DNA of 32,068 bases from a virus. The first letter of the stretch is position 1; the number at the start of each line of letters is the position of its first letter. Location of the stretch: positions 1 through 32,068 of the IMG/VR virus record IMGVR_UViG_3300045963_000138. One strand, given 5' to 3'. Shown here one piece after another: positions 7,325-28,667 of the stretch. The notes under the pieces were generated by a model. The model had not been told where the DNA came from and did not search any database. It was given only the letters and a program-made list of their open reading frames with translations. The position numbers were made by a program, and so were the translations under genes.

Positions 7325-8062
7325 TCAGTTGTTCAAGATGGTCGGGTCAGCGCGAAGAATGCCGAGTTCGTCACGAGTGCGGAACTCGGACGACAGGATG
7401 GTGTTCATGATCCTCAATTCGAGAAGGATCAGGGTGAGCAGGTCATCGTGGGAGCGCAGCACCGGCGTCGGGTCGTTGGCGACGGTGACCGGGACCGTCC
7501 CACTGATGGCCTTGCCTCCGATCTCGTTCAGAGCGACCTGGCCATTCCCGAGCGACGTGACAGCCGGCAATGTGCCGTAGGCGATGTTCAGCGTGAACTT
7601 CGTCGTCGGGCTGGCGCCGATGTTTTCAAACTGCGCCTGAAAGTAATTGCCGTTTGCCGTATAGGCCTCTGAATACGGCACTCCGGGCGTGATCGACTCG
7701 ACGATGGTGTTGCACGGGAACTGCCCAGCCGCGTCGATAAACTCGATCAGGGTCAACTCGCCCGGCTGGTCGCTCGTGGCCAGGATTGAAATCGTCTGCT
7801 GGCTCTGGATGCTCTCGACGGCGCCGACGAAGGTCTGGCCGGCGCCGAGCTGTGTCGTGCTGCTGTTCGTGCCGTTGGCCGAGAACAAGAACAGCGTGGC
7901 GGCCGGCTGAATCGGCAGGGGGCTGGCTGTGGTGACCAGCGTCTCGGCGTTGGCGTTGCTGCCGCCGTAGTCGAGTTGGACGACCTGGGTCTTGACGCCA
8001 GCGCCAAGCCGGTCAATGTCCCGGATGTTGTCGCCGCCGCTGGAAAGGCTGTTGTCGGCCAT
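7325..8062 (-). CDS. Minor virion protein
   Basis: A 245-residue protein with start MADNSLSSGGDNIRDIDRLG. The N-terminal half is Ser/Thr/Gly-rich and beta-like, the middle contains NTIVESITPGVPYSEAYTA, and the C-terminal 50 residues are helical with RSHDDLLTLILLELRIMNT. Genes with such a C-terminal LL-x-LILLE-R helix are common beside the next protein in this type of module, where they are annotated as structural of unknown role. No enzymatic motif is seen. Confidence 0.65.
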   Translation of the reverse strand: MADNSLSSGGDNIRDIDRLGAGVKTQVVQLDYGGSNANAETLVTTASPLPIQPAATLFLFSANGTNSSTTQLGAGQTFVGAVESIQSQQTISILATSDQPGELTLIEFIDAAGQFPCNTIVESITPGVPYSEAYTANGNYFQAQFENIGASPTTKFTLNIAYGTLPAVTSLGNGQVALNEIGGKAISGTVPVTVANDPTPVLRSHDDLLTLILLELRIMNTILSSEFRTRDELGILRADPTILNN

Positions 8063-8063
8063 A

Positions 8064-8468
8064 TCAGACCCCGAACGCCGTGACGGTCAACGAGGTGAAA
8101 TTACACGTCTGCCCGCTCGTGATGCTGGCGCTGGTCACGATCATGTCGGTGCCTGATGTGCCCACCGTCCCCTGCACAACGGCGTTGGTGCTCGTGGCTG
8201 CAGTTGGGTAGATGCGAAAGTAGCCCACGGTCCCGGAATTCCCAGCCGTGGCCGATGCGACAGCCGCAGCCGTCAGCACGCCGCCCGAGGCAGAGCCGAA
8301 CCCGCCAGCATTGCCCGCAAATGTCACCAGCAGAGTGCCAGTGTCGGCTGCCCCGCAGTTCGCAGGCGCCGTTCCCGACCAGATCTTGATGACTGCAGAC
8401 GCGCCGATATCGGTAGCGAGCTGCGTCATCGCATTGGTGCGGTGCGTGGTGCTGTATTGGATGCTCAT
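8064..8468 (-). CDS. Small beta-rich virion protein
   Basis: A 134-residue protein starting MSIQYSTTHRTNAMTQLA, with DIGASAVIKIWSGTAPANCG near the start and alternating polar and small residues after it, ending SLTVTAFGV. The INxxATDIGxxAxIKI(W/Y)-G-P pattern occurs in phage proteins that follow portal genes and are listed as structural. Start overlaps the portal stop as ATGA, which favours co-translation with the portal. Confidence 0.68.
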   Translation of the reverse strand: MSIQYSTTHRTNAMTQLATDIGASAVIKIWSGTAPANCGAADTGTLLVTFAGNAGGFGSASGGVLTAAAVASATAGNSGTVGYFRIYPTAATSTNAVVQGTVGTSGTDMIVTSASITSGQTCNFTSLTVTAFGV

Positions 8469-10690
8469 GCGATGCCTGCAGCGCGGCCATCAGGCCCGCG
8501 AATGATCTGTTTCGGCTTGCCCATCTGTTCAACTGCAGCCCGGAACCCGTCGATGCTGACAGCCAGAGCGCTTGTCAGGTCCTGCCCGCCTGCCGTGTCG
8601 ACTGGCGCCGCATTGCCCTGGCTCATCTGGGCGATGTAAATCTGCGTCTCGGCTTGCAGCTGGGCCTTCCAGCGCTCGAACTCGATCTCTTGCGTCCGGA
8701 TCTGCATTTGCTGGTCGGCCTTGTACTGCTCAAGCTGCATTTGCAGCTGTGCCTCTGCCTGTTTTTGCTGTGCCTCGACGTGCTGGCGGTTGGTGTCCAC
8801 CTGGGCCTGCATCGTCATGCGCTCATGCTCAAGCTGTAGCTCGGACTGCTTGCTGGCCTGGTCCGCCTGCATTTGCAACTGCGCTTGCTGTGCATCGTGC
8901 TGCATCTGCGCCTGGGCCTGCATCATCTTGGGGTCTTGGTGCGGCTGTGGCTGCTGCGCGTCGGGGAACAACTCCTCAGCCCCTTGCAGACCGGATGCAT
9001 CGACGAACTTGCGCGCCGCCAGGATCACGGCCTGCGGGCTGATCACGCCGGCCTGCGCCATGGGCGCTTGCATCTGCATGATCTGCTGCAACACGATGGC
9101 CTTCTTGTCCTTCGACCCGGTCCCCAGGCCGGCATTGACGGTGATCTGGTAGCCCTCGTCCCACTCGCGCGGATCGATTGGCACCCATTTTCCCATCAGC
9201 TCAACGATTTCCTCGACCTCTTGATACCGGCACATGCAAGCCAGCATCTTTCCAAATATCTTCCGCACGGATTCTGCCGCAACCCGGGCGATGAGTTCGG
9301 TCCGCTGGTCTGCCTTCTCTGCGATGAGAGAAACTCCCGTCGCAGTTGGGTTAAGTGCATCCGGGCTCATGCCCTGCGAATATCGCGTGTACCCCGTGCG
9401 GGTTTCTCGCCACTGCTCAGACCATTCGACCATCTGCCATGCCGATTGATCCAGACCGTTTTGAGGAACTGGAACCATCGCGCCTTGCGTCTTGACCCGA
9501 ACCACGCCGCCAGGGCGCGACATCAGCAGGTCATCAAGATTCACCTGCCCCTCGACAACGGCCGTGCGTTGGTTCACGGACAGATAGACATTGTCCAGAA
9601 TCGCCCGCATCAGCGACGTGCGCAGGCGCTGCGGCTCGATGGCCATGTCGGCCGGGCAAAGGCCGAAGAACGTATGAGGCAGCGGGATCGGGCAGAACCA
9701 GACGAAAGGGTGATCTGGAACCTTCTCCTGCTCCATCACCGTCTTGCCGATCATGAAGACGCGTAGCCACTCAGGGATGCCGTCGCCGTCTTGATCGAGT
9801 TTGATGTAGCACTCGCTGCACTTGTACCGCTGCAGTTCACCGTCTGATGCATCGTAGAAAAACGGCGTCTGCGTGTTCGCGCGCTCGATTTCCTCGATGT
9901 TCCATGAGTCCTCGGTGCTGGTGTTTGTCAGGTCGTAACCGTCCGCCTCAAGCTCGGCCCGGGTGCGGTAGAACTCGTGCGCGACGAACAGCGGATCTTC
10001 GCCGTACCGCGCGCGGGGATGAACGCGCATTTCCTCGGGGGGCACGCACTTGACGACGCAGCGATCTTCGACCTTCTCGCGCTTCACCTTGAGGTCGTAC
10101 ACCTCGATCTGCATCGGAGGCTGCTCAGGCATGCCGGGCATTTCTGGTGCCTCGATCTGGACGGTCTGAACCTCCTTCTCCAGCACCTCCACGTCATCAT
10201 CCTCGAGCATTTCCTCGACCTGCTCGGCCGTCAGTTGCTTGTATGACTCCTCAATATCTCGCCTTGATTCTTCCCAGTAGACCTTGACGAATCCGACTTT
10301 CTGCACCAGCGCATCGCGGAACATGCTGTTCAGCACACCGAAGCCGTCGTTCTTCTTCCAGAAACAGTGCCGCATGTACTCGCTGGCAAGTTTTGCCTGT
10401 GGTGCGAATCGCTCAGCAGTTGGCGTGCACTCGACGGCGTCGGGCGACGCGGCAAACACGCGGATCAGGCTGGGCAGCATCCACTCGACAGTATCCGCCA
10501 CGTCAGACGCGACGATCTGTGACCGGTCGGGGATGGACGGCGGGGCGAGCTCACCGGTCGCCTCGGCCTTGTAGTACTGCAAGTTCCGAAGGCGGAGCTG
10601 TGCCACCTCAGACGTGGGGGAACCAAGGGCCTGCTTCAGCTCCTTTTCGAGGATCGCCGCTAGCTCGCTGTCGCTATATTTCTTGGCCAT
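8465..10690 (-). CDS. Portal protein (P22/SU10-like)
   Basis: A 741-residue portal protein, the dodecameric ring at the packaging vertex. I start at ATG 10690 (MAKKYSDSELAAILEKEL); an in-frame GTG at 10717 is possible and neither start has a strong ribosome site. The core shows a long clip/stem-type acidic insert (EEMLEDDDVEVLEKEVQ), the CVPPEEMRVHPRARYGEDP segment and the PFVWFCPIPLPHTFFG and ALNPTATGVSL segments typical of large podovirus portals. The C-terminal 150 residues are glutamine-rich coiled coil, likely the barrel or an internal extension. It follows the large terminase gene, the standard order. Confidence 0.9.
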   Translation of the reverse strand: MAKKYSDSELAAILEKELKQALGSPTSEVAQLRLRNLQYYKAEATGELAPPSIPDRSQIVASDVADTVEWMLPSLIRVFAASPDAVECTPTAERFAPQAKLASEYMRHCFWKKNDGFGVLNSMFRDALVQKVGFVKVYWEESRRDIEESYKQLTAEQVEEMLEDDDVEVLEKEVQTVQIEAPEMPGMPEQPPMQIEVYDLKVKREKVEDRCVVKCVPPEEMRVHPRARYGEDPLFVAHEFYRTRAELEADGYDLTNTSTEDSWNIEEIERANTQTPFFYDASDGELQRYKCSECYIKLDQDGDGIPEWLRVFMIGKTVMEQEKVPDHPFVWFCPIPLPHTFFGLCPADMAIEPQRLRTSLMRAILDNVYLSVNQRTAVVEGQVNLDDLLMSRPGGVVRVKTQGAMVPVPQNGLDQSAWQMVEWSEQWRETRTGYTRYSQGMSPDALNPTATGVSLIAEKADQRTELIARVAAESVRKIFGKMLACMCRYQEVEEIVELMGKWVPIDPREWDEGYQITVNAGLGTGSKDKKAIVLQQIMQMQAPMAQAGVISPQAVILAARKFVDASGLQGAEELFPDAQQPQPHQDPKMMQAQAQMQHDAQQAQLQMQADQASKQSELQLEHERMTMQAQVDTNRQHVEAQQKQAEAQLQMQLEQYKADQQMQIRTQEIEFERWKAQLQAETQIYIAQMSQGNAAPVDTAGGQDLTSALAVSIDGFRAAVEQMGKPKQIIRGPDGRAAGIA

Positions 10691-10723
10691 AGGCGCCAAG
10701 TGTAGCAACACGGCCACGGACGG

Positions 10724-12010
10724 TCATCTGTACCCCATCGTTGGGTATTTGAGCACACCACCCCATTCGTCGTTGCTCATGTTGTCGACGCAGAGTGCAA
10801 GGTATCTGAACGCATCGGCACCGTGCGAATACTCATCATGCACAGGGGCGCCAGGCTCATTCGTCGATGCGCTGATCTGGCGCCTGTATCGCTTCAGGCA
10901 TTCGATCAGGCGGGCCGCGCGCTCCCTGTTGAAGTAGATCCGGCCGAACACCTCACGTGCGCGCTTGATGCCCTGTTCAATGCCTGCCTGCGGTATCCCT
11001 GGGCTTCCTGAGTCACCCGGCACATTCCACCCCAGGCCACGCAGCACGTCAGCGTCCATGCGCCCGGTCTGGTGCCGCTTGGCGAACCCATCGTGCGGTA
11101 GGTAGTGCGTTCCCCAGTTCACAGGCTCACCGTCCAGCGTCAGGGCTTTCAGGTCGGCGCTGTAACTCGCGAGTGTGCGCTGCGAATCCTCGATGTAGTG
11201 CACGATCCGGATCTCGCTGCTGACCTTTTGCACGAGGATGATTGCCATGCAGTCGTTAAACCCAAGATCCCACACGGCATGGGTCTTCAGCAGCGGGTCG
11301 TGGGGCACAGCACCGATACGCGGGCCTGCTGCGCTCATCTGGTCGAAATAGATCGCACCCTCAACAGCAGGCTTGCACTTGCCTTCCCAGGTGTGCGCGT
11401 AATCATCCGGTTTCATCGTGTTCTGTGCATGCACCCGCTCAGCCTCCAGCACAGCCGGGAAATATGGGTTGTCGTGCCAGTTCATTTCGATGCTGACCGT
11501 GCCAGGCGCCGGCTCAGTAACCGCCATCCGGTGCGTTTCATCGCTCTCAAGTTCTGGGTTGTAGGTCGCCCATATCTCGCTACCCTCCTTGCGGATCGTC
11601 GGCGTCAGGATGCGCCACGAGCGTTGCGTGATGGCTTGCGCCTCCTCGCACCAGACGATATCCACCCCCTCAAAGCTCTTGATCGATTCGGCCGTTTGAT
11701 CGCTCAGGCCTGAGAAGAATATCTGCGTCCCATTGGCGCCTCGAATCTCAGTCTGCAGCACTTGGTAAAACGCGCCCAGGCCTAGGGCCTCGATCTGGTC
11801 CCTGAGCAACTGGTGCACAGATTGCGCAATACTTTTCTGCACCTCGCGCGTGCACAGTATCCGCAGCGTCTGCGATGCTCCGCGTATCAGCAGCTTGCGA
11901 GCGACGCCCCAGCTTTTGCCTGATCCTCGACCACCACGGATGAATTTGTAGCGGGCCGGTACATCCAGACCCGCCAGCTTCTTCGGGAAACGCGCGATCA
12001 CCTCACTCAT
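10724..12010 (-). CDS. Terminase large subunit, PBSX-type
   Basis: A 428-residue packaging motor and nuclease. Walker A is RGGRGSGKS (residues 25-33), Walker B with the catalytic glutamates is VDIVWCEEA (116-124) and the coupling motif is ATYNP (148-152). The nuclease domain carries VWDLGFNDCMAI (aspartate 248) and a final DEYSHGADAFRYL with conserved acidic residues near 400. This is the PBSX/Terminase_3 family. It translocates DNA into the prohead through the portal and cuts concatemers. It overlaps the TerS-like gene by 8 bases. Confidence 0.93.
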   Translation of the reverse strand: MSEVIARFPKKLAGLDVPARYKFIRGGRGSGKSWGVARKLLIRGASQTLRILCTREVQKSIAQSVHQLLRDQIEALGLGAFYQVLQTEIRGANGTQIFFSGLSDQTAESIKSFEGVDIVWCEEAQAITQRSWRILTPTIRKEGSEIWATYNPELESDETHRMAVTEPAPGTVSIEMNWHDNPYFPAVLEAERVHAQNTMKPDDYAHTWEGKCKPAVEGAIYFDQMSAAGPRIGAVPHDPLLKTHAVWDLGFNDCMAIILVQKVSSEIRIVHYIEDSQRTLASYSADLKALTLDGEPVNWGTHYLPHDGFAKRHQTGRMDADVLRGLGWNVPGDSGSPGIPQAGIEQGIKRAREVFGRIYFNRERAARLIECLKRYRRQISASTNEPGAPVHDEYSHGADAFRYLALCVDNMSNDEWGGVLKYPTMGYR

Positions 12011-12521
12011 GCACGATACGGATCATGTGCGGTTGCTCTCCCGCATCTTCCAGCTTCTCGACCCTGGCCTTGTTCGCGGCCAACAAGTTCAAAGCGATGT
12101 GGCTGGAATCGTTGGCGAGCTTGGTCAGAACGCCGACGTTGCGCAGGCTGTCGATCGATGCCATCGGCTCGGCGTCGTCCACCTTGGCGACCTCGCTGTT
12201 TGCCAGCGCATGCAGCCGGTGTGCTGTGGCACTGCCCAACTCTGCGGCACTGGCCAGGCTCGCGCTGATGTTGCGCAGGCGTTCGGCCAGGCTAACGGCC
12301 GCGTACTGCTGCGGCACCGGCAGCGCGGCAAGTTCCGTCTGAGCGGCGGCGAGCTTCTGCGCGACAGCCCGCACCTGCGGGGTATGCGGGTTTACCTTTG
12401 CCCGCACCGATGACTCATCAACGCCGAACTCACGCGCCAGCGCCCTGACGCCTTCGCCGGCAGCGTGGCGCCTCGCCACCTCCTGCCATTGCGCCGGGCT
12501 CAGCTTAGACGGTCGAGCCAT
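12003..12521 (-). CDS. Terminase small subunit-like DNA-binding protein
   Basis: A 172-residue protein starting at ATG 12521 (MARPSKLSPAQWQEVARRH), 4 bases after the previous stop; an upstream extension to 12578 lies inside the previous gene. Residues 5-50 form a helix-turn-helix of the resolvase/homeodomain-like type (GVRALAREFGVDESSVRAKV), as in many TerS proteins that recognise the packaging site. The rest is helical and probably oligomerises. Its place directly before TerL, with overlap, supports the small terminase call. Confidence 0.78.
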   Translation of the reverse strand: MARPSKLSPAQWQEVARRHAAGEGVRALAREFGVDESSVRAKVNPHTPQVRAVAQKLAAAQTELAALPVPQQYAAVSLAERLRNISASLASAAELGSATAHRLHALANSEVAKVDDAEPMASIDSLRNVGVLTKLANDSSHIALNLLAANKARVEKLEDAGEQPHMIRIVHE

Positions 12522-26360: not shown

Positions 26361-26749
26361 CCACCGCCACCACCGAAACACGCTGGTATGTAATAACCCC
26401 CGAAGGTCGCGCAAAATTGTGCGCCGACGAAAATGAGGCGCGCAAGGTAGCGCACGAATGGAATATGTTTCCGCCCGCCGGGAAGCCGTATAAAGCGGTT
26501 TTACTCGGCGATGTATCTGCTATTGCAGCAGAGCGCGACGCGATGCGCGAGGCGCTGCGCGACCAGCCAGGCTTGGCAGAGCGGGCATTTTTCAAGATGC
26601 AGTCCAACGACGCCAAGGCACATGCATACCGCATGGCGATGGCGCCGCCCGGGGCGTGCCCATCGTGCTACGGGGATGGCGAGCAAGGTGGCCAGTTCTG
26701 CGGCGGGTTCTGGCAGTGCGAGAGCTGCGGCGGAACAGGTAAGGCCTAA
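26357..26749 (+). CDS. Zinc-finger accessory protein ending at the first attC-like site
   Basis: A 130-residue protein from ATG 26357 (ATGA junction). N-terminal residues (TETRWYVITPEGRAKLCADE) form a small domain. The C-terminal 30 residues hold a DnaJ-like zinc pair: CPSCYGDGEQ at 101-110, then C115 and CESCGGTG at 121-128. Its TAA stop lies inside the first box (GCCTAAC) of the attC-like site that follows. Such DnaJ-type Cys pairs are frequent in small phage accessory proteins. Confidence 0.68.
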   Translation: MTTATTETRWYVITPEGRAKLCADENEARKVAHEWNMFPPAGKPYKAVLLGDVSAIAAERDAMREALRDQPGLAERAFFKMQSNDAKAHAYRMAMAPPGACPSCYGDGEQGGQFCGGFWQCESCGGTGKA

Positions 26750-26800
26750 CGCTTGAGCTAAGGGGCGCCGTCAGGCGTCCCTTTGAGCGAAGAGTTAGGC
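26744..26800 (+). repeat. attC-like site 1
   Basis: A 57-base imperfect inverted repeat. The outer boxes GCCTAAC (26744-26750) and GTTAGGC (26794-26800) are perfect complements. Inside them come a short CTT/AAG pairing, an unpaired spacer of about 5 bases on each side, then AAGGGGCGCC pairing with GGCGTCCCTT (one G-T pair) around a GTCA loop. This is the R-box, unpaired spacer and L-stem plan of integron attC sites. The first box contains the stop codon of the preceding gene. Confidence 0.7.
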
Positions 26801-26835: not shown

Positions 26836-27144
26836 ATGAAGATTGCACCGACACCCTGGGGCCGCGACAAGTACGTCAGCATCGTTGATGCGACCGGCGA
26901 GCGCGTGGAGTTGACCGGCATTGCGATGGCTACAGGCCGCATCAGCGACGACGCGCTGTGCCACGGGAATAGCGCGCTGCTTCTGGCGGCACCAAAGATG
27001 GCCGACGTGCTGCGCGCGATTGTGCGAAGCGCTGAATTGAACCAAGCGGCCGTGAACACGTTTCTGCTGATTGACGCCCGCGAAGTACTGGCGATGTTGG
27101 ATGGCGTTGAAATGCTTGCCGCGCCGGTATTGGGTGCTGCATAA
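26836..27144 (+). CDS. Cassette gene 1: phage accessory protein
   Basis: A 102-residue protein from ATG 26836 (MKIAPTPWGRDKYVSIVDAT), with GAAAGGA upstream. The pattern PTPW-x-x-D, GIAMATGRISDDALCHGNSA and LLLAAPKMADVLRAIVRSA is a very common phage accessory family of unknown function, where the middle part is usually a (N-x)-A-x-L-(I/L)-AAPxL unit. It lies between site 1 and site 2, and its TAA stop is inside the first box of site 2. Confidence 0.7.
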   Translation: MKIAPTPWGRDKYVSIVDATGERVELTGIAMATGRISDDALCHGNSALLLAAPKMADVLRAIVRSAELNQAAVNTFLLIDAREVLAMLDGVEMLAAPVLGAA

Positions 27145-27241
27145 CTACTGACATAACCGCGCCAGACCCGGCGCAAAGGAAAGACGATGAGCAAGCAAGA
27201 GTATCCCGCCGGGGCTGGTCAGGTTGATGGAACAGTTAGGC
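27139..27241 (+). repeat. attC-like site 2 (with a start codon in its loop)
   Basis: A 103-base site. Outer boxes are GCATAAC (27139-27145) and GTTAGGC (27235-27241), pairing at 6 of 7. The inner arms CCAGACCCGGC (27162-27172) and GCCGGGGCTGG (27208-27218) pair at 10 of 11, with an AACC/GGTT pairing outside them and unpaired spacers between the stems. The large terminal loop holds an AAAGGAAAG ribosome site and ATG 27187 of the next gene. Confidence 0.7.
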
Positions 27242-27546
27242 CTAGTGCCTGGATAACCGAGAGCGGCAATGAATGCCTGCAATGCGACGATGGCCAAATA
27301 CGTGCGATGCCAGCCCAGGATGAAAACTGCGGCTTCGTGGTGCCGCTGTACGGCCAAGCCGCGCTTGATGCAGCCGTGGCCGCAGAGCGCGAGCGGTTCA
27401 CAGGGGCGCGGCAGGCTGCGCTTGAGAAAGATGCGCAGCGCTACCGCAAACTACGCGCGGGCAAATACAGCATTCAGGTGGCGCGCAGCATCCTCAACGA
27501 CACTCCGCACGGAATTGATGAAACTGTGGATGCGTTGAGCCACTGA
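27187..27546 (+). CDS. Cassette gene 2: accessory protein started inside attC-like site 2
   Basis: A 119-residue protein. ATG 27187 has a strong ribosome site (AAAGG) and lies in the loop of site 2, so the first 16 residues (MSKQEYPAGAGQVDGT) are coded by the site itself and the frame runs through its GTTAGGC box. From there the body, RPSAWITESGNECLQCDDGQ and later GFVVPLYGQAALDAAVAAER, is the common phage accessory pattern ((Q/R)PSAW-x-T ... VPLYx-x-AAL-D-A). Between them is GQIRAMPAQDENC. No later in-frame ATG has a good site. Function unknown. Confidence 0.68.
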   Translation: MSKQEYPAGAGQVDGTVRPSAWITESGNECLQCDDGQIRAMPAQDENCGFVVPLYGQAALDAAVAAERERFTGARQAALEKDAQRYRKLRAGKYSIQVARSILNDTPHGIDETVDALSH

Positions 27547-27555
27547 ATTGGTGCT

Positions 27556-27611
27556 GCCTAACTACTGAGGTCACGCGCGCCGAAGGCGTCGCGTGCACCG
27601 GCAAGTTAGCC
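27556..27611 (+). repeat. attC-like site 3 (shared by convergent genes)
   Basis: A 56-base site with boxes GCCTAAC (27556-27562) and GTTAGCC (27605-27611), which differ at one pair. The arms pair as GGT, CACGCGCGCC on the left with GGCG-CGCGTG-ACC on the right, leaving an extra T and an extra C unpaired on the right arm around a GAA loop, like the extrahelical bases of attC. The TACTGAG spacer after the first box is also found at site 4. The right box contains the TAA of the minus-strand gene. Confidence 0.7.
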
Positions 27612-27770
27612 GGCTGGTGGACGAGAGCGCAGGATGACCGCGCGCAGCCACTCCAGGCCGTTGGCGTCGATCTTGGCCCACAGCGCAGGCGGCAAGCGGA
27701 TGGACCGCTGCACCAGGCATTCGGCTTCGGGTTTTGGCGGGCGCCCGCCCTTGTTCTTTGGCTGTTCCAT
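27606..27770 (-). CDS. Cassette gene 3 (reverse): small GGRPPKP regulator
   Basis: A 54-residue protein on the minus strand: MEQPKNKGGRPPKPEAECLV, QRSIRLPPALWAKIDANGLE, then WLRAVILRSRPPAG. The basic GGRPPKP start, a (V/Q)-RSIRL strand and two helices form a small RHH-like DNA-binding protein that is frequent in phages and mobile elements. Its TAA lies in the right box of site 3. A TATACT hexamer at 27778-27783 ends 7 bases before the ATG, and no ribosome site is seen. Confidence 0.7.
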   Translation of the reverse strand: MEQPKNKGGRPPKPEAECLVQRSIRLPPALWAKIDANGLEWLRAVILRSRPPAG

Positions 27771-27777
27771 GCGGCGC

Positions 27778-27861: not shown

Positions 27862-27996
27862 ATGAACAGCAAGCAAGACACCGTGACGATGACATGGCAA
27901 GCCAATGGCCGCAACTGGCGCGAGCTGCGCGCATGGAACGGCTGGGGCTTCCAGTACTTCACGCAGTACGAATACGCGCCGGGGGTGTGGCTGTGA
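27862..27996 (+). CDS. Cassette gene 4: very small tryptophan-rich protein
   Basis: A 44-residue protein (MNSKQDTVTMTWQANGRNWR, then ELRAWNGWGFQYFTQYEYAP) with GGAG 8 bases before the ATG. It has five tryptophans and four tyrosines in 44 residues. It ends in a GTGA overlap with the next gene. The 91 bases upstream are the divergent region towards the reverse gene. No family known. Confidence 0.6.
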   Translation: MNSKQDTVTMTWQANGRNWRELRAWNGWGFQYFTQYEYAPGVWL

Positions 27997-28277
27997 GCGG
28001 GGGGCGCAAGCCCATTACCGGGGCCGAGAAAGATGTTGCATGGAAGCTCGCGCAAAAACACAGCCTACTGTTCTTGGAGCAAGGGACACAAACGTTTGAC
28101 GACGCACTGTTTGCGTTCTGCGCCGATATGCTGCAGGCGTTTGGCGAAGACGGGCAGAGGTCCCGCTGGCTTGTTGAATGCAAGCATGTCCCGTGGGGAC
28201 AGGTCATCGATGCTGCGCACGCCGCTGAACACGGATTGGATGCCGCGATTGATGCGGCCAGAAGCAAGGCCGGCTAA
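27993..28277 (+). CDS. Cassette gene 5: hypothetical protein
   Basis: A 94-residue protein with GTG start (GTGA overlap). It begins VSGGRKPITGAEKDVAWKLA and continues with LFLEQGTQTFDDALFAFCAD and a helical C-terminus (VIDAAHAAEHGLDAAIDAAR). It looks helical and cytoplasmic. The TAA stop lies in the first box of site 4. I do not recognise a family. Confidence 0.62.
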   Translation: MSGGRKPITGAEKDVAWKLAQKHSLLFLEQGTQTFDDALFAFCADMLQAFGEDGQRSRWLVECKHVPWGQVIDAAHAAEHGLDAAIDAARSKAG

Positions 28278-28370
28278 CTACTGAGCTGAACCGGCCCCAC
28301 GGCGCTGCCGGTATATGCAAACTGACGAGCCGCGCCCGCCGTGGGGATCGGTTCGAGCGATAAGTTAGGC
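28272..28370 (+). repeat. attC-like site 4
   Basis: A 99-base site. Boxes are GGCTAAC (28272-28278) and GTTAGGC (28364-28370). The stem pairs CTGAACCGG with TCGGTTCGAG (one extra A on the right arm) and then CCCCACGGC with GCCGTGGGG perfectly, with a large loop. The TACTGAG spacer after the first box matches site 3. The longest and cleanest of the four. Confidence 0.72.
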
Positions 28371-28390
28371 CTGTGGGCCGGAGTGAGAAG

Positions 28391-28630
28391 ATGCGTGATA
28401 AGCAACTGAAACCGAAGCTAGTTCCGCTGCCATGCCCGTTTTGCGGCATGAAACCGAAGCTGGCGCCGCAGAACCCCGATGAGGACGGAAACGCCTGGGG
28501 CGAGGTGTACTGCGCCAGCAGCAGGTGCGCCGTGGCGCCCAGCGTGAAGGACGGCCAGGACTGCGCCGACGAGCGCGGGACGGGTGCCTACATGGACTGT
28601 GCGATTCGCCGATGGAACAAAAGGGCCTAA
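28391..28630 (+). CDS. lar-like: Cassette gene 6: Lar-like restriction alleviation protein
   Basis: A 79-residue protein from ATG 28391, with GGAG 7 bases upstream. It carries the Lar-family pattern LPCPFCGMKPKL (C15, C18), WGEVYCASSRC (C41, C46) and the ending ACAIRRWNKR-like segment YMDCAIRRWNKRA, i.e. two Cys pairs and a terminal W-N-x-R. By family knowledge Lar of Rac prophage modulates type I restriction; many phage relatives have no tested function. The TAA stop lies in GCCTAAC of the half-site. Confidence 0.78.
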   Translation: MRDKQLKPKLVPLPCPFCGMKPKLAPQNPDEDGNAWGEVYCASSRCAVAPSVKDGQDCADERGTGAYMDCAIRRWNKRA

Positions 28631-28667
28631 CTAGTCCATCGCCCGCAGTTTTGCTGCGTATGCGGGC
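28625..28667 (+). repeat. attC-like half-site 5 and hairpin ending the cassette series
   Basis: The first box GCCTAAC (28625-28631) is intact and holds the stop of the Lar-like gene, and a stem GCCCGCA/TGCGGGC (28641-28647 and 28661-28667) follows. No matching GTTAGGC-type box is found in the next 80 bases (the nearest is GTTGATT at 28695). It looks like a truncated last site. It lies between convergent operons and the hairpin may also end transcription, though no T-run follows. Confidence 0.5.

Follow-up and report, generated by a model that had tools for sequence, protein, structure and literature searches.

A start codon in the loop of an attC-like site of a phage cassette array, and the gene it may serve

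The locus described here raises the question of whether a recombination site can also provide the start of the gene that follows it. The window, that is, the whole 32,068-nucleotide stretch of viral DNA that we analyzed (IMG/VR record IMGVR_UViG_3300045963_000138), carries an attC-like site, attC2, with a ribosome site and start codon in its terminal loop. According to the first-pass annotation of this DNA, the site would provide a translation start for whichever cassette is inserted downstream in the right frame. We considered in turn whether attC2 is an attC, whether the next gene (gene B) is read from its loop, and how far such an arrangement extends to other cassettes.

An array of attC-like sites in a phage record

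The window record, a 32-kb IMG/VR virus, includes genes for a terminase, a portal protein, a helicase loader, RecT, and NinB. It also carries four attC-like sites, all on the plus strand, at 26744 to 26800 (attC1), 27139 to 27241 (attC2), 27556 to 27611 (attC3), and 28272 to 28370 (attC4). No integron integrase (TIGR02249) was found in the window record, which may be a fragment, or in the four other array contigs discussed below. Because the contig combines four attCs with no integrase, we classify the array as a CALIN, a category defined by at least two attCs with no integron integrase nearby. None of 1,000 shuffles of the inner sequence folded as well as attC1 (R'' GCCTAAC, R' GTTAGGC), and the same was true of attC4; for attC3 (R' GTTAGCC), 34 of 1,000 did. 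A search of Rfam returned no relevant family.

The sites separate small genes. Cassette A encodes a 102-amino-acid protein (26836 to 27144, plus strand) that has its own Shine-Dalgarno (SD) sequence and an ATG at 26836, matches phrog_1273 weakly (E = 1.5e-4), and had no relatives that we could find in viral contigs. The plus-strand gene of cassette C (27993 to 28277) has its own strong SD and a GTG start, and the C-terminal portion of its product weakly resembles phrog_4029 (E = 0.019). Cassette D encodes a Lar-like restriction alleviation protein (28391 to 28630, plus strand; PF14354, E = 2.4e-7 on 28373 to 28627), again with its own SD and ATG. An R''-like GCCTAAC (28625 to 28631) closes cassette D with no attC after it, and an array in another phage contig, L018, ends similarly near position 1853. 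A 53-codon minus-strand open reading frame (ORF) (MEQPKNKGGRPPK..., 27614 to 27772), for which we found no Pfam match, runs against the array and stops at the R' of attC3.

The 103-nt attC2 has all four boxes in the order R'', L'', L', R' on the plus strand. R'' (GCATAAC, 27139 to 27145) and R' (GTTAGGC, 27235 to 27241) form the inverse repeat expected from RYYYAAC and GTTRRRY with one mismatch between the arms, position 3 of R'' being an A that departs from the strict consensus. L'' (CATAACC, 27152 to 27158) pairs with L' (GGTTGATG, 27222 to 27229), which leaves one unpaired, extrahelical base, and the hairpin can be folded further through an inner stem (CCCGGCG at 27167 to 27173, CGCCGGG at 27207 to 27213) that closes a 33-nt terminal loop (27174 to 27206). 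With the R boxes held fixed, 4 of 1,000 inner shuffles folded equally well.

We weighed the possibility that this hairpin is not an attC at all and is instead an ordinary leader or 5' end of gene B that happens to resemble one. Consistent with that idea, the fold of site 2 is less striking than those of attC1 and attC4, and its DNA folding is unremarkable on the minus strand (z = -0.6, compared with -2.0 on the plus strand). The weaker fold is, however, expected because the loop is as long as 33 nt. Moreover, an ordinary leader would have to account for the ordered boxes and the L stem with its unpaired base, for arms whose pairing was equaled by just 2 of 2,000 shuffles of the 3' arm, for a 5' edge that shares 18 of 19 bases with attC3 (27133 to 27151 and 27550 to 27568), and for the upstream gene terminating in R'' (gene A stop TAA, 27142 to 27144). 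Based on these features, we regard a chance resemblance as extremely unlikely. The attC-like character assigned to site 2 in the first-pass annotation thus held up, and attC2 looks like a credible attC hairpin; the window sites presumably still recombine.

The loop start and the N-terminus of gene B

The terminal loop of attC2 contains the SD AAAGGA (27175 to 27180; duplex energy, -5.6 kcal/mol) and, six bases after it, an ATG (27187 to 27189). The coordinates confirm that the frame opened by this codon passes through the GTTAGGC box, read as GTT AGG C.., into the next gene, for a total of 119 amino acids (27187 to 27546, plus strand; stop TGA, 27544 to 27546). The nearest upstream stop in this frame, TAA at 27154 to 27156, itself lies within attC2. 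Residues 1 to 18 (MSKQEYPAGAGQVDGTVR) are encoded by attC2 and are followed by the PSAW...VPLY body of the protein; the distinct N-terminal stretch noted earlier comprises 18 residues, not 16. Among the in-frame starts, ATG 27187 alone has a usable SD, the next ATG (27307) having a negligible one. In the predicted RNA fold of attC2, the start codon is about 57% unpaired, and the SD and AUG are unpaired to only about 60%.

Codon use supports the body of gene B as a coding sequence, scoring 0.29 bits per codon (known genes, 0.34) against about -0.06 and -0.42 in the other two frames. The N-terminal part scores between coding and noncoding (attC-encoded codons, -0.03; the 22 codons after R', 0.04), and residues 1 to 29 were predicted to be disordered in a single-sequence AlphaFold model. 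When the loop of attC2 was shuffled, an SD with an in-frame start arose in 7.7% of cases, so at this site alone the coincidence is only modestly unusual.

Homologues covering the N-terminus of gene B were not found among viral contigs, phages, or plasmids. The viral contigs yielded one distant relative (L002), restricted to the C-terminal portion, which also weakly resembles phrog_4029 (E = 0.063); no convincing homologue was identified among phages or plasmids, and a match in one genome (L045) was rejected as spurious. Two phages related to the window through NinB (L213 and L214; 64% and 62% identical) encode P.AW...VPLY proteins shortly downstream of NinB, with a different and longer N-terminus. 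Their resemblance to gene B through AW...VPLY is at the motif level only (pairwise E values of 3e-4 and 0.4). These proteins are encoded near where the window carries its attC array. As judged from these sequences, the gene B protein probably includes the residues encoded immediately behind R'; if residues directly after R' belong to it, a start inside attC2 is needed.

We conclude that translation of gene B most likely, though not securely, begins at the loop ATG of attC2, with the SD before it; attC2 is the site that belongs to cassette A. Gene B has no SD-supported start within its own cassette and is best read as "headless," borrowing a start from the attC of the preceding cassette.

Loop starts in other phage arrays

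We surveyed 29 phage-borne attCs, comprising those of the window and of arrays in four other contigs (L018, L219, L216, and L221) found by pattern scans; the survey is incomplete, because the spacer used in the last viral scan was one base short for many sites. Nearly all matches in two broad pattern scans were due to chance, L018 excepted, and none from a short-attC pattern scan looked real. Three of the 29 attCs, attC2 included, carry an SD and start in the loop with a frame open through R' into the main ORF of the next cassette, which itself lacks an SD-supported start. The two outside the window belong to independent phage arrays. In L018, attC5 (1594 to 1717) has the SD GAGG and a GTG at 1652, giving MEKQENIEKEAGALSHLSDELG from the attC and continuing as VQNKP.... 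In L219, attC11 (11622 to 11740) has the SD AGGTG and an ATG at 11681, giving MTENTTQAAEAASDLNAELD and continuing as SLLEM..., and the cassette that follows has a complete attC at each side.

At L219 attC11, the attC-encoded stretch has an in-frame codon score of 0.40 (known genes, 0.32), the highest of the 12 attC 3' halves of that array (the nearest other scores 0.34), and a single-sequence model of the protein predicts one helix (residues 6 to 35) that spans the boundary between attC and cassette. The L219 array itself (7509 to 12069) is large: its 12 attCs, each with a small gene and with no integrase, occupy the terminal 4.6 kb or so of a phage contig of 43 kb. We found no relatives of it in phages, and only two short Vibrio matches among plasmids.

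How often would such starts arise by chance? From dinucleotide shuffles of the loops, 1.06 loop starts would be expected among 29 attCs, and the probability of three or more is 0.066, a generous figure given that the window seeded the search. With about 1 of 29 expected, the evidence for loop starts is moderate. The integron of Vibrio phage p16 (L230), which served as a control, includes an attC (35771 to 35896) with an SD and an in-frame ATG that opens only a spurious-looking 36-amino-acid ORF, showing that a background of loop starts is real. A second test depends less on the number of cases, and in it the loop starts coincide with cassettes that lack a start of their own: among the 28 cassettes with a main ORF, 20 have their own SD-supported start and 8 do not, and a missing start was found in 3 of 3 cassettes behind a loop start versus 5 of the 25 others (Fisher P = 0.017). 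Because two of those five are two-gene cassettes, the rule used for scoring own starts is conservative.

These results bear on the main alternative for gene B, namely, that it lost its real 5' end during cassette formation or movement, that its frame extends into attC2 only by chance, and that the gene is a remnant or uses a weak start further downstream. The frequency of suitable starts in shuffled attC2 loops, the ambiguous codon score of the N-terminus, and its predicted disorder are all compatible with this history. It would leave unexplained why the layout is repeated in two other phage arrays and why loop starts accompany cassettes that lack their own, and the downstream in-frame starts on which it could draw have no usable SD. 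Taken together, we consider such a loss, in either form, possible but rather unlikely. Translation of gene B from the attC2 loop remains our preferred reading, and the layout recurs as a peculiarity of individual gene junctions, those at attC2, L018 attC5, and L219 attC11.

Mechanism, precedents, and portability

At each of the three junctions, translation of the upstream gene would end within or beside R'', 45 to 62 bases before the loop start. The predicted RNA hairpins expose the initiation signals to a moderate degree (unpaired fraction of 0.53 to 0.62 for the SD and 0.57 to 0.87 for the start codon). At attC2, we suggest that ribosomes translating gene A would halt at the TAA in R'' and unwind the mRNA hairpin at its base, while the loop would present a partly exposed SD and AUG. 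A ribosome initiating there would melt the 3' arm as it moved and would read on through R' into gene B, adding the 18 attC2-encoded residues. The simplest model is the known event of termination and reinitiation at an attC, modified in that the frame begun within the attC would continue into the next gene.

Parts of this model have precedents: arrays of attCs in phages have been described before, as have short ORFs within attCs and translation that crosses one. In published work, attC hairpins in mRNA are described as blocking ribosomes, and a short ORF inside the attC as relieving the block through termination and reinitiation (Jacquier et al. 2009, as reviewed in PMC8876359). As at attC2, a start inside the attC aids translation of the next cassette, but the short ORFs described there end and ribosomes reinitiate, whereas the attC2 frame continues and supplies the N-terminus of gene B. 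The ORF-11, ORF-17, and ORF-18 of attI1, as presented in the same review, likewise offer a translation start, within a recombination site, to downstream cassettes without initiation signals, but they are located in attI1, act by coupling, and precede the first cassette only. An element of the ORF-11 type lies in attI and terminates in or close to the cassette core, so that the next gene reinitiates; ORF B is not of this type, since it starts in an attC and has no stop at R'.

Fusion across an attC has been demonstrated experimentally for GCUF1-OXA-28: resistance fell when an in-frame stop was placed ahead of the second gene but not when the RBS or ATG of that gene was changed (PMC3375312). Translation there also proceeds through an attC into the next cassette; it differs from gene B in that the start is in gcuF1, before the attC of that cassette, and in that blaOXA-28 possesses an RBS and ATG itself (PMC3375312). 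Synthetic attCs have been built into coding sequences (Nivina et al., as described in PMC8618304) and, like attC2, place an attC hairpin within an ORF; unlike attC2, they are designed, and the account of them that we drew on describes no loop start. Clusters of attCs without an integrase are known from phages, and those phage attCs that were assayed recombined with attI1 (Qi et al. 2023, PMC9892861). Such phage CALINs resemble the window in their phage-borne attCs, small cassette genes, and lack of an integron integrase, and the passages of that report covered here do not describe start codons in attC loops. The first-pass statement that no standard attC is known to work as a mobile start signal needs qualification: attCs with short ORFs that help translation, and an ORF crossing an attC into the next cassette, have been published.

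If translation from the attC2 loop is confirmed, a single sequence would act as a recombination hairpin while also starting the next gene and encoding the N-terminus of its product. The order of cassettes would in that case set the N-termini of proteins in addition to expression levels, and some cassettes would be unable to work alone. In phage arrays, the output of gene callers and attC finders would need to be read jointly.

A stronger proposal is that attC2 is a portable start module and that cassette A with attC2 donates a start to any following cassette and has been selected to do so. The one hint in its favor comes from three genes: the plus-strand genes of the window analyzed for phase (A, B, and D) share phase 0 and have no stop between R' and the gene, so that A and D would also be readable in frame behind attC2. 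Across 27 cassette genes, however, the phases relative to R' are about even (9/11/7, counting an L216 start at 8190 in phase 1), from which it follows that only a minority of cassettes could be read in frame, and about a fifth of the others are both in phase 0 and open. Whereas the window loop start is in phase 0, those of L018 attC5 and L219 attC11 are in phase 1. Most cassettes carry a start of their own; such SD-supported starts, present in 20 of 28, usually lie 2 to 62 bases after R', and within the window the plus-strand genes behind attC1, attC3, and attC4 all have one. Our scans also found no second cassette behind a copy of attC2. The earlier claim that the site supplies a start to any in-frame cassette is accordingly not borne out, and a start module of this general kind appears very unlikely. 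The broader idea that phage arrays hold a class of attCs whose loop is kept as a site of translation initiation, with recombination altering the N-terminus and expression of in-phase cassettes, is somewhat less improbable but still doubtful. The loop start belongs to single junctions and is not a general start module; excision between attC2 and attC3 would separate cassette B from its start.

Further features of these arrays were observed. The loop of attC4 also contains an ATG (28315), which we rejected as a start for the neighboring gene, since it has no evident SD and opens an ORF that stops within R' and has a noncoding codon score (-0.35). That ORF (28315 to 28368) consists of 17 codons (MQTDEPRPPWGSVRAIS) with a TAG within the R' GTTAGGC, a layout like that of ORF-11 of attI1. 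In addition, a near-identical attC (TAACTACTGAGCTTAACACGCAAGCACTAAC...) recurs in L018 (1244 to 1335), L219 (7509 to 7599 and 10768 to 10858), L216 (6655 to 6746), and L221 (8598 to 8689). Its presence in four contigs, mostly behind different genes, suggests that these phages may draw on a shared cassette pool. A cassette in L221, on the minus strand between attC-like sites (about 8689 to 8290), encodes a product that by eye looks like a phage endolysin-type peptidase.
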